The notes under the pieces: model-generated
The model's input: only the letters and a program-made list of their open reading frames with translations
What the model was told of the DNA's origin: nothing
Databases searched by the model: none
Program-made: the position numbers and the translations under genes
Part shown: positions 15,514 to 18,025 of the stretch, in pieces
Position numbering within the stretch: position 1 is the first letter of the stretch
Layout of the letters: every line of letters begins with the position of its first letter
Assembly: GCF_013364355.1 (NCBI RefSeq)
Contig: NZ_CP054931.1
Location: 2,790,001-2,854,000 of the forward strand
Source: Stenotrophomonas sp. NA06056
GTDB taxonomy: Bacteria; Pseudomonadota; Gammaproteobacteria; Xanthomonadales; Xanthomonadaceae
Direction: 5' to 3'
DNA length: 64,000 nt

Positions 15514-15870
15514 ATGAGCACCTCCAACAAGACGCTGTCCCTGCTGACCGCCACCGCCTTGGCCGCAGGCCTGGGCATGACCGCTTCCGCCTCGGCCCTG
15601 AGCATGAGCGACCTCGCCCAGGGCTATCTGGTGGCAGGACAGGCAGCCAAGGCCAGCACCGACGCCAAGGCTGCCGATACCAAGATGGCCGCGGACGCCA
15701 CCAAGCATGCTGAAGGCAAGTGTGGCGCCGATGGCAAGACCGCCGAAGGCAAGTGCGGTGCCGACAAGGGCAAGGCGGCCGGCGCAGCTGCCGGTGCCAA
15801 GGCCAAGACCGGCGACAAGAAGGCAGCCGAAGGCAAATGCGGCGAAGGCAAGTGCGGTGCCAAGCACTGA
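15514..15870 (+). CDS. bufferin/GigP-like RiPP precursor with four EGKCG motifs
   Basis: 118 aa. A Sec signal peptide ([20 protein letters not shown], cleavage near ASA-L) is followed by [17 protein letters not shown] and then an Ala/Lys/Gly-rich tail. All four cysteines sit in identical EGKCG motifs: residues 67-71, 78-82, 106-110 and 111-115. Bufferin precursors (DUF2282-type) carry such motifs; their Cys are modified by an MNIO enzyme to heterocycles that bind copper in the periplasm (established knowledge of the family). The modifying gene overlaps directly downstream. Chemistry and metal here are inferred from those homologues. The Lys-rich tail resembles membrane-proximal or metal-buffer proteins. 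Confidence 0.85.
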
Positions 15871-16732
15871 CGTCAACACCGGCGTCGTCCACCCGCGGTC
15901 GCCGCTTCCCGCGGCGGCCGTGGGCCTGGGCCTGCGCCGCGCCCTGCTGCAGGACCTGCGCGAAGCTCCGGCCGGCGATTTCGATTTCCTCGAGTGCGCG
16001 CCGGAGAACTGGATCGGTGTCGGTGGCCCTGCTGGTGATGCCCTGGCCGAACTGACGGCGCGGCATCCGTTGAGCTGCCACGGCCTGTCGTTGTCACTGG
16101 GCGGCAGCGCAGCACTGGATACCCAGCTGCTGGCCCAGGTGGGTGCCTTTCTTGAACAGCACCGGGTGCCGCTGTACAGCGAACACCTGAGCTACTGCAG
16201 CGACGAGGGCCATCTGTACGACCTGCTGCCGATTCCGTTCACCGATGAAGCGGTACGCCACACCGCTGCACGCATCGCCCGCGTGCAGGACATCCTCGGC
16301 CGCCGCATCGCCGTGGAAAACGTGTCGTACTACCTCGCGCCGGAGCCGATGATGGACGAGCTGGCCTTCACCAATGCGGTGCTGGCCGAGGCCGACTGCG
16401 ATCTGCTGCTGGACGTCAACAACGTCTACGTCAACGCCTGCAACCATGGCTACGATGCCGATGCCTTCATCGCCGGCCTGCCCGAGCAGCGCATCGTCTG
16501 CCTGCACGTGGCCGGGCATCTGGACGACGCTCCCGACCTGAAGATCGACACTCATGGCAGCGCGGTGATCGATCCGGTATGGGACCTGCTGGCGCGTACC
16601 TATGCCCGTATCGGTGCACGCCCGACACTGCTCGAACGCGACTTCAATTTCCCGCCCTACGCCGAGCTGCGGGGCGAACTGCAGACCATCCAGCGCCTGC
16701 AGGCCGTACATGCCGGAGCAGCCCATGGCTGA
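15857..16732 (+). CDS. MNIO-family (DUF692) RiPP-modifying enzyme, BufB/GigA-like
   Basis: 291 aa TIM-barrel of the DUF692 / multinuclear non-haem iron oxidase family. Family landmarks: [12 protein letters not shown] start of the barrel, [59 protein letters not shown] and LLERDFNFP; the His/Asp/Glu residues in these form the iron site. It is expected to oxidise Cys of the EGKCG motifs in the adjacent precursor. No ATG lies near the 5' end; GTG 15857, overlapping the precursor gene by 14 bp, is chosen. GTG 15920 is an alternative. The stop overlaps the DUF2063 partner gene by 8 bp. Confidence 0.88.
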
Positions 16733-17480
16733 CGACCCGGAACGACTGCGCGCACAGCAGCACGCGTTCACCGCACACCTGCGCGACCCGGCGCAGGTAC
16801 CGGCGCCGCCCGGCATGGACCCGCGCCGGGTGGCCGTGTACGAACGCCTGCTGTTCAACAATCTGCTGGGATTGTTGAGCAATGGTTTCCCGGTCTGCGT
16901 GCGCCTGCTGGGCGAACCGGCCTGGAGTGCGCTGGTGCGCCACTACTTCGCCAGCCATCATTGCCAGGCGCCGCTGTTCACCGAGCTGGCCGCCGAGTTC
17001 GTGCAATGGCTGCAGGTGCAACCGCAGCTGCCGCATCCAGCGCTGGCCGAACTGGCCCACTACGAGTGGGTGGAAACCGCGCTGTACCAGCTGCAGGCCG
17101 ATCCGTTGCCGGAACCGGGCGACATCGACCCGTTGCAGGTGCCGTTGCGGCGCTCGCCACTGGCCTGGCCGCTGCTGTATCACTGGCCGGTGCATCAACT
17201 GGGTAGCGACGATGCACCGCTGCAAGCGCCGGCAGAACCCACCGGCCTGTTGGTGCGCCGCGATGCCGATGGCGAGGTCAGGTTTGCCGCGCTCAGCAGC
17301 CTGGCGGTGCACCTGCTGACCCTGATCGGCGAGGCACCCGGCGCTACCGGCCAACAGCAGCTGCTGCAGCTTGCCACCCTGCACCATCTCGATCCCGAAA
17401 CCCTGGCCGCCCCTGGCGCACAACTGCTGCTGCAGTTCCTGCGTACCGGTGTGATCGGCCCGCTCCCTGCTTCACCCTGA
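16725..17480 (+). CDS. DUF2063 partner protein of the MNIO enzyme, BufC/GigB-like
   Basis: 251 aa. The N-terminal half is the DUF2063 'putative DNA-binding' domain ([15 protein letters not shown], then [20 protein letters not shown] and [12 protein letters not shown]), the usual companion of DUF692 enzymes. In RiPP pathways this domain presents the precursor to the MNIO enzyme rather than binding DNA. The C-terminal half ([17 protein letters not shown]) is a winged-helix-like segment. ATG at 16725 overlaps the enzyme gene by 8 bp, so translation is coupled and a complex is likely. Confidence 0.85.
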
Positions 17481-17503
17481 CGCCCCTTCCAGGAGATTCA
17501 CCC

Positions 17504-18025
17504 ATGAAGACCCCGACCCTGGCCGCCGCGCGCGGCCAGCTGGACCGTTTCGCCCCGTGGTTGGCCCCGCTGGGCCTGCGCGTACTGCTGGCGTGGGAAT
17601 TCTTCGAATCCGGACGCGAGAAGCTGCATGGCGAGAACTGGTTCGCCGACCTGCAGGGCGCATTCCCGTTTCCGTTCGACCAGCTGCCCGCTGCGCTGAA
17701 CTGGCAGTTGGCCACCTGGTTCGAGCTGGTGGGTGCGGTCTGCCTGCTGCTTGGCTTCGGTACCCGTTTTGCCGCCACCAGCTTGCTGGTGCTGACGGTC
17801 GTGGCAACGTACGCGGTGCATTGGCCGGCCGAATGGAGCTCGCTGAGCGAGCTGGCGATGGGTTATGCGATCAGCGACCAGGGCTTTGGCAACTTCAAGC
17901 TGCCGCTGCTGTTCATGGCGATGCTGCTGCCGCTGCTGTTCACCGGCGCGGGGAAACTGAGCGTGGATGCGCTGCTGGCGCGGTGGTATCCGGCGGGCCC
18001 CACGGCGCTGCCCGCGCTCCGGTAG
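17504..18025 (+). CDS. DoxX-family membrane protein, GigT/BufD-like
   Basis: 173 aa with about four transmembrane segments (residues about 18-35, 70-90, 93-110 and 130-150). Family motifs are [23 protein letters not shown] cut here as [17 protein letters not shown], and [19 protein letters not shown]. DoxX proteins are the fourth member of many DUF2282-DUF692-DUF2063 operons (gold-induced gig and bufferin loci); role probably in redox or metal handling at the inner membrane. ATG 17504 has a strong AGGAGAT site 8 nt upstream. It ends the operon. Confidence 0.85.

Follow-up and report, generated by a model that had tools for sequence, protein, structure and literature searches.

A 36-bp box shared by EGKCG-peptide and methionine-sulfoxide reductase operons of Stenotrophomonas, and its probable control by a two-component system

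The stretch of DNA analysed here, referred to as the window, is 64,000 nucleotides long and corresponds to positions 2790001-2854000 of the 4.52-Mb, one-contig genome of Stenotrophomonas sp. NA06056. It contains a four-gene operon for a ribosomally synthesized and post-translationally modified peptide (RiPP). A preliminary description of this DNA placed genes for a precursor, a DUF692 protein, a DUF2063 protein and a DoxX protein in that order at 15514-18025, with the only four cysteines of the precursor each inside an EGKCG motif. Both points hold: Pfam recognizes MbnB_TglH_ChrH (334 bits), DUF2063 (88.8), NGO1945_C (82) and DoxX (75.9), all above cut-off, and the 118-residue precursor has its four cysteines exactly there (Table 1). 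Ahead of the operon lies a 36-bp box that, across the genus, stands in two kinds of place, before operons of this type and between msrB and a divergent two-component system. The operon itself belongs to a known kind; what is new, as far as the literature searched shows, is the shared box upstream, its two-place distribution and its likely control by the two-component system.

On profile evidence the operon is a Stenotrophomonas member of the Buf_EGKCG/oxazolin family (PMC12452194), also known as HvfABCX or, after PMC12668002, as the captophorins, because the NCBIfam cut-offs are exceeded for the KCGExKCG_twice domain of the precursor, HvfB, HvfC and HvfX. The same NCBIfam and Pfam matches uphold the broader proposal of an operon for a metal-binding RiPP made by a multinuclear non-heme iron-dependent oxidative enzyme (MNIO), with DoxX as the fourth gene. 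Among the best 120 of 221 relatives of the precursor, 12 carry the name 'HvfA family', including Stenotrophomonas, Lysobacter and Xanthomonas entries. Solved relatives exist for the MNIO (3bww; profile searches used the stretch 15875-16729) and for its HvfC-type partner (3dee). The MNIO contains the motifs GLGLRR and ERDFNFPP, both aligned with 3bww, and by our reckoning of the numbering these appear to match R15 R16 and D249 F250 of FonB, positions typical of Lys-Cys MNIOs (PMC12668002). The modification is currently assigned as a 5-thiooxazole (PMC13419390, PMC12668002), and modification, export and copper binding are presumed for NA06056 by carry-over from the family papers.

The box came to light upstream of hvfA. 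For 36 requested loci a start-codon rule retained 30, and in the resulting alignment of 31 sequences, the window included, one strongly kept block with an inverted repeat inside is present in 28; the three sequences without it (L038, L039, L050) have an HvfB below 80% identity. In the window the repeat reads ACCTCA-N8-TGAGGT, and this is its sole instance there at one mismatch or fewer (mean of 0.06 in shuffled sequence, at least one in 6 of 100 shuffles). Within the NA06056 genome, a first pattern derived from the hvfA block, YTCACGAAANNTTGAR, was not specific by itself when two mismatches were allowed (16 sites, with 13 for the reversed pattern), and its exact matches number two. A second such pattern, at up to three mismatches, likewise has two sites, and its reversed control has none. 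Both searches lead to the same places, the window operon and a site about 965 kb away, which has one mismatch to the second pattern and lies before msrB.

A combined pattern of 36 bp was then taken, with 27 fixed bases, at most three mismatches and the reversed pattern as control, and searched together with HvfB and the response regulator in a common set of 91 Stenotrophomonas genomes. The box occurs in 81 of them, at 131 sites, and the control gives none. All of these sites fall into two classes: 53 lie 420-483 nt before a window-type HvfB (at least 85% identical to that of the window), 78 lie on the strand opposite a match to the response regulator and 41-73 nt from it, and there are no others. 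Seen from the genes, 53 of 55 HvfB loci at or above 85% identity carry the box, the remaining two being over the limit with 4 (G065) and 6 mismatches (G074), as against 0 of 50 loci below 85%. Similarly, 78 of 82 genomes with the regulator have the box within the limit and the other four (G001, G031, G037, G080) have it at 4 mismatches, which brings the relaxed counts to 82/82 regulator loci and 55/55 window-type hvfB loci. The regulator is present in all 55 genomes with a window-type HvfB, and at up to three mismatches the box is found in none of the nine genomes lacking the regulator.

The gene behind the box is equally consistent. Sixty sites were read in context (30 genus loci, one each from 30 of the 81 genomes with a box, 28 named loci, the window and L099), own-genome loci L001-L006, L087-L098 and L100 being excluded from this alignment; an EGKCG precursor is next in 36 and MsrB in 24. 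When all retrieved contexts with up to four mismatches are pooled, 81 distinct ones divide into 36 hvfA and 45 msrB with none unassigned, so that msrB follows the regulator-side box in 45/45 of the distinct contexts read. The preliminary description had taken the inverted repeat as a sign that the operon has its own regulation; regulation from the 5' side stands, but the element is not private to the operon, being common to a second locus throughout the genus.

At that second locus the box lies between msrB and an OmpR-type response-regulator gene, which is transcribed away from it and has a histidine kinase gene behind it. In NA06056 the genes after msrB are those for a DsbD/thioredoxin-like membrane protein and then MsrA. 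Both reductases are securely recognized (MsrB 165.5 bits against a cut-off of 113.1; MsrA 171.4 against 108.1), and the membrane protein matches Thioredoxin_10 at 168.5 bits with DsbD_TM just under cut-off. The start of MsrB resembles a twin-arginine translocation (TAT) signal, a match of 19.0 against a cut-off of 22.7 on which its periplasmic location rests. At this locus a two-component system and a methionine-sulfoxide reductase operon are transcribed away from each other on either side of the conserved box. Pfam detects no sensor domain in the kinase, and its best NCBIfam model is under cut-off. In the N-terminal part of the kinase the methionines of an ELM and an LM motif are kept in 21 of 21 aligned sequences, which fits sensing by methionine oxidation and does not show it.

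The anatomy of the box resembles that of a tandem regulator site. In four examples it divides into 11-bp units that start with TCA, TGA (TTA in one), T/CGA and TGA, and 11 bp is the pitch of OmpR/PhoB-type sites. The conserved stretch GGATTC within the box occupies the place of a -35 hexamer, and 12 nt past the box stands CACCAT, matched in the msrB promoter by an equally spaced CAG(C/G)AT. No sigma-70 consensus match is seen at CACCAT. GGATTC and the CA(C/G)(C/G)AT-like hexamer, with a 17-nt spacer, could be the -35 and -10 elements of both promoters, the regulator covering a poor -35. Two other assignments were considered for this region. A PhoB box belonging to the phoU neighbourhood was set aside, the CTGTAAC stretch being absent in L010, L021 and the S. 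rhizophila group, and the Caulobacter sigma-F promoter GTAACC-N16-CGAA (PMC3511200) was not seen at that spacing in a search by eye.

Table 1. Features of the operon and its upstream region in the window
Feature	Position	Strand	Remarks
Terminator-like hairpin between phoU and operon	15310..15334	+	10-bp stem, then T-rich tail; weak alone
Inverted repeat ACCTCA-N8-TGAGGT	15414..15433	+	exact; outer arm bases vary in relatives
36-bp box, 11-bp units TCACGAAAATT/TGAGGTCTTGG/CGAGGATTCGT/TGA	15417..15452	+	131 sites in 91 genomes
GGATTC within box, in -35 hexamer place	15442..15447	+	conserved box stretch; putative -35 role
CACCAT, candidate -10 hexamer, 12 nt past box	15465..15470	+	from alignment and conservation; putative role
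RiPP precursor, EGKCG type (HvfA-like), 118 aa	15514..15870	+	ATG 15514, TGA; KCGExKCG_twice (NF050137) 33.9 bits, NCBIfam cut-off 19.5
LAQGY just past signal peptide	15613..15627	+	candidate recognition sequence for HvfB/C
EGKCG site 1	15712..15726	+	residues 67-71
EGKCG site 2	15745..15759	+	residues 78-82
Tandem EGKCG pair, sites 3 and 4	15829..15858	+	residues 106-110 and 111-115
MNIO enzyme, HvfB type (DUF692)	15858..16732	+	PRK05409 414.9 bits, cut-off 360; PF05114 334 bits; PDB 3bww E 3e-78
Partner protein, HvfC type (DUF2063 + NGO1945_C)	16725..17480	+	NF050145 260.1 bits, cut-off 142; PDB 3dee E 5.8e-8
DoxX-family protein, HvfX type	17504..18025	+	NF050144 151.9 bits, cut-off 80; PF07681 75.9 bits

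These observations are best accounted for, with a probability that we put at roughly 0.72, if the two-component system beside msrB switches on both the copper-binding peptide of this Buf_EGKCG/oxazolin operon and periplasmic methionine-sulfoxide repair through the shared box. A periplasmic signal, at a guess an envelope oxidant or copper stress, would reach the kinase. The response regulator would then bind the box as direct repeats with an 11-bp pitch in place of a -35 element, as the anatomy of the site implies, and would activate both promoters, the direction of control being likewise a guess. In the cytosol HvfB and HvfC would convert the EGKCG cysteines to 5-thiooxazole, and the modified precursor would be exported by Sec and bind Cu(I) in the periplasm, as modelled on the family. 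The second operon would supply MsrB and MsrA along with a membrane/thioredoxin-like source of reductant, roles read from their domains. A copper-binding thiol peptide would in this way be made while oxidized methionines are repaired.

Relatives of the regulator and kinase beyond Stenotrophomonas bear on this proposal. At E<=1e-70 the regulator was found in ten of 198 family genomes, of which only G150 does not belong to the genus. Its regulator is 56% identical, and in place of msrB it has a divergent gene that seems to encode another secreted protein; the best box-like site of the stretch retrieved still lies between the two, with 8 of 27 mismatches and the 11-bp pitch kept. The kinase was found in 50 of 398 genomes of the order at E<=1e-75. 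Outside the genus it has 32 matches, 20 of which were retrieved and inspected, two of these stretches being unusable, L216 for its shortness and L226 for having hardly any sequence upstream. In G310, from another genus of the family, the regulator is accompanied by a box-like site (5 of 27 mismatches), then msrB and a DsbD-like gene. Sequence comparison of G150 and G310 suggests that the box travels with the regulator.

A different arrangement was observed at nine distant loci among the 20 inspected (L212, L213, L214, L217-L222), where the kinase/regulator pair diverges from genes for secreted-looking proteins with no recognizable box. The nine proteins share a motif like YEVTITN(I/L)T...FTP(V/I)L, and we take them to be spondin-like. 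At L213 and L218 the gene is preceded by TCAC-N7-TCAC repeats with an 11-bp pitch, and near forms occur at L214 and L221.

In a wider sense, we lean slightly toward the view that this OmpR-type system controls just two units through the 36-bp box, an EGKCG captophorin and periplasmic methionine-sulfoxide repair, that the same pairing has been reached repeatedly with unrelated regulators (counting YedY of Caulobacter, presumably MsrP, on the repair side), and that the peptides are part of envelope oxidant defence and not only copper buffers. If so, they may act by withholding Cu(I) from Fenton-like chemistry or by letting their thiols absorb oxidants, and a two-target regulon would make it testable whether peptide and repair answer copper, oxidants or both. 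It would also attach a predicted function and binding site to a two-component system without a description found in the literature searched, in a common environmental and opportunistic genus.

Several precedents point in this direction. In Haemophilus influenzae, RpoE2 drives msrAB and a DoxX/COG3767/UPF0276/DUF2063 operon after hypochlorous acid (HOCl) (PMC7907618), and in Neisseria meningitidis sigma-E has msrA/msrB and a DoxX-containing operon of six genes under its control (PMC3240639). In Caulobacter, sigma-F drives YedY and two DUF2282/DUF692/DUF2063 operons (PMC3511200). In Escherichia coli, msrPQ is induced by HOCl via HprSR and by copper via CusSR, the boxes of both systems lie in the hiuH-hprR intergenic region, and the evidence suggests that CusF is repaired by MsrPQ (PMC9302797). 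The HprSR-hiuH-msrPQ locus resembles the Stenotrophomonas one in that a two-component system diverges from genes for methionine-sulfoxide repair, putatively periplasmic in Stenotrophomonas, with a box between them and a link to copper, presumed in the latter; it differs in that the regulator here is under the HprR and CopR/SilR cut-offs, the enzymes are MsrB and MsrA rather than MsrPQ, and the box also stands before a RiPP operon. The hvfABCX operon of H. influenzae shares with the window an EGKCG precursor with a signal peptide (putative in the window), the MNIO HvfB, the RiPP recognition element (RRE) partner HvfC and the DoxX protein HvfX (PMC13419390), and is co-controlled with periplasmic Msr (PMC7907618). 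The window precursor has four sites, not six, arranged as one tandem pair and two single motifs, and the box and two-component system appear to stand where the extracytoplasmic function (ECF) factor RpoE2 does in H. influenzae.

A number of points weigh against control by the adjoining two-component system or against the wider pairing. The genomes of the genus are mostly close kin, and the counts measure conservation rather than independent events; the nine regulator-less genomes, at 3.0-3.9 Mb, belong to the small end of the set and may form a single clade. In a wider search of 297 family genomes (17 of Stenotrophomonas, 280 of other genera) the 14 that matched are genus members only, and at up to three mismatches the box is absent from the 280. 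The best site has at least 11 mismatches in 17 of the 20 kinase stretches from outside the genus, which we read as either a changed site or a different role at these distant loci, and the box-like site of G150 is known from a single genome. The response regulator falls short of the HprR (153 against 353) and CopR/SilR (173.6 against 279.2) cut-offs, as does the kinase of that for the heavy-metal sensor model (134.8 against 292.6); the signal therefore cannot be read from the family. The precursor itself misses the cut-off of the HvfA equivalog NF050188 (24.6 against 95 bits). Among the precedents, the msrA homologues of Caulobacter were unchanged with sigF, and YedY is the sole link there (PMC3511200).

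The strongest competitor, though still unlikely, is that the captophorin operon is an ordinary one and its box binds some other regulator, be it an ECF sigma factor, SmeRySy or another DNA-binding protein, while the two-component system merely adjoins msrB. ECF factors do govern such operons elsewhere, and in a rough motif search of 80 related loci eight, none of them of the window type, have an ECF-like gene upstream; the same search finds none upstream of the 29 window-type relatives L007-L035, and an ECF sigma factor was rejected as the local regulator on that account. The eight loci (L036, L037, L043, L047, L048, L050, L051, L057) may use another regulator. As for SmeRySy, the transcript of Smlt0593, a 'methionine sulfoxide reductase' of S. 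maltophilia KJ, falls 3.9-fold on smeRySy deletion (PMC4981351 Table 2), which makes a second regulator possible and weighs against the two-component proposal if Smlt0593 is among the box-linked msr genes. The box also contains a 7-bp dyad, GAATCCT/AGGATTC, whose arms pair in 94% of cells for hvfA and 79% for msrB as against 20-67% for slid versions, and this leaves room for a palindrome-binding factor or an RNA stem in place of direct repeats. Set against these points are the presence of the regulator in 55/55 genomes with a box-type hvf operon, the absence of the box from regulator-less genomes (0/9) and the box-like site of G150, which stays by the regulator despite a changed divergent gene.

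A transcribed RNA element in the leaders of both operons, rather than a DNA operator, is a good deal less probable. The box ends 61 nt before the ATG of the precursor and 47 nt before that of msrB, and the pairing just described would suit such an element, but the dyad of the window has one mismatch and two G-U pairs, and the 11-bp units are conserved as highly as the stem. Rfam at E<=1 gives two matches only, both far under their gathering scores, and a known RNA element was discarded. A DUF2282 bufferin/gig operon as first proposed can be practically dismissed: its gene order of precursor, DUF692, DUF2063 and DoxX is identical and its chemistry likely so, but the precursor is of the EGKCG-repeat type with no Pfam match at E<=1, hence no DUF2282, and the bufferin maturase model NF050167 is below cut-off (261.5 against 310 bits).

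These last results come from the comparison of the precursor and the DUF692 protein with bufferin families that the preliminary description had itself suggested. Its strict 'bufferin/gig-type' label has to be given up, and judged by sequence it is only the broad sense of a copper-binding MNIO RiPP that stands. The precursor, with four cysteines, does not have the six or twelve conserved cysteines of Bufferin 2, and the methanobactin MbnB equivalog is far from reached (44.7 against 325 bits). The bufferin/gig operons (Caulobacter sigma-F, PMC3511200; Legionella GIG, PMC5413113) have DUF692, DUF2063, DoxX and a metal response in common with this family, and those of Caulobacter are paired with YedY; they differ from the window in precursor family, and those of Caulobacter also in regulator. 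Closer in kind are the Buf_EGKCG/oxazolin gene clusters, with EGKCG repeats and mainly RiPP, MNIO, DUF2063 and DoxX genes as here (PMC12452194), and the captophorins fontiphorin and gonophorin, in which the MNIO and its DUF2063 partner convert EGKCG to 5-thiooxazole and which bind copper (PMC12668002, PMC13097082). Fontiphorin has seven sites and a fon cluster without DoxX, whereas the window has four sites and DoxX.

The accessible passages of the open-licence literature gave no report of a shared-box regulon and none that joins captophorins with the Haemophilus, Neisseria, Caulobacter or E. coli msr cases. Among those on S. maltophilia, PMC4981351 alone bears on the question, and its Table 2 names no DUF692, DUF2063 or DoxX gene. 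Neither 'methionine sulfoxide' nor 'Stenotrophomonas' occurs in the main texts of PMC12452194 and PMC13097082, and that of PMC12452194 mentions neither Msr nor two-component. In S. maltophilia, MsrA and MsrB are reported to be inducible by fosfomycin and by two metabolites, in passages that give no locus (PMC8745565). On the role of EGKCG peptides, PMC12538549 is hesitant about copper protection and PMC12668002 calls for further studies of captophorin physiology.

The precursor was surveyed at 80 related loci, L058 having been dropped before the counts for want of a precursor within reach. Inspection places a putative signal peptide up to about residue 28, with a hydrophobic stretch and an ASASA cleavage-like site. 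Just behind it the form L-x-x-G-Y is present in 77 of 80 precursors, two of the misses having Met for Leu and one being cut by a contig end, and this conservation makes it a candidate recognition sequence. An alanine scan of FonA, in which every variant ahead of the core was tolerated (PMC12668002), tempers that assignment. The window precursor and those of L007-L035 (HvfB 87-92% identical) contain four EGKCG motifs in 18 of 30 cases, six in 10 and five in 2. Where the HvfB is 90-92% identical, 12 of the 22 named loci are records called Stenotrophomonas maltophilia. On these alignments the four-site form is an ordinary local variant, because 18 of these 30 precursors have it. It invariably has one tandem pair (18/18), six-site precursors have three pairs in 7/10 and two pairs in 3/10, and the smaller form plausibly derives from the larger by reduction.

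The back-to-back EGKCG pair had been thought a departure from the simple form, but tandem pairs are usual in the family. HvfA, for instance, has three motifs of this kind (PMC13419390), and MmrA has 5-8 cysteines in EGKCG units, arranged in one strain as three two-Cys cassettes (PMC12538549). The two single motifs of the window precursor might by analogy be weaker modification sites, because FonBC modified a two-repeat but not a one-repeat peptide (PMC12668002). In precursors of the Lysobacter group (L042, L044, L045, L046, L049, L052 and others) EF-hand-like segments were seen by eye between the EGKCG motifs; in PMC12452194 EF-hands are described as lying C-terminally. Of the 80 precursors, 28 match an approximate EF-hand pattern that overlooks some instances.

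The gene overlaps first described need some qualification. DUF692 and DUF2063 do overlap, by 8 nt (ATG 16725, TGA 16730-16732). Close to the precursor stop there is no ATG for the DUF692 gene, whose candidate starts are GTG 15858 and GTG 15920; the former, with GAAGG 8 nt upstream, gives a 13-nt overlap with the precursor, which is likely. The DoxX gene starts at ATG 17504, 23 nt past the DUF2063 stop, with no overlap. Just upstream of the operon, 13646-15275 holds an ABC-ATPase gene (pstB-like by eye) and then phoU (Pfam). The terminator-like hairpin that follows is the one such site found, and shuffles have a mean of 1.6, so such sites are no rarer in shuffled sequence.

Other MNIO genes came up in passing. 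NA06056 has a second MNIO locus (L100:3828-5915, about 3111827-3113914 of the genome) with DoxX, an EGKCG/EGQCG precursor fused to EF-hands and an MNIO, with a thioredoxin-like gene and a distinct two-component system of OmpR type nearby; neither the own-genome nor the genus-wide search found the 36-bp box there. Stenotrophomonas-like hvf genes also occur on a contig labelled Bacillus subtilis SK7B5 (L032) and behind two proteins labelled Rhizopus arrhizus (P0003, P0010), most likely through assembly contamination.

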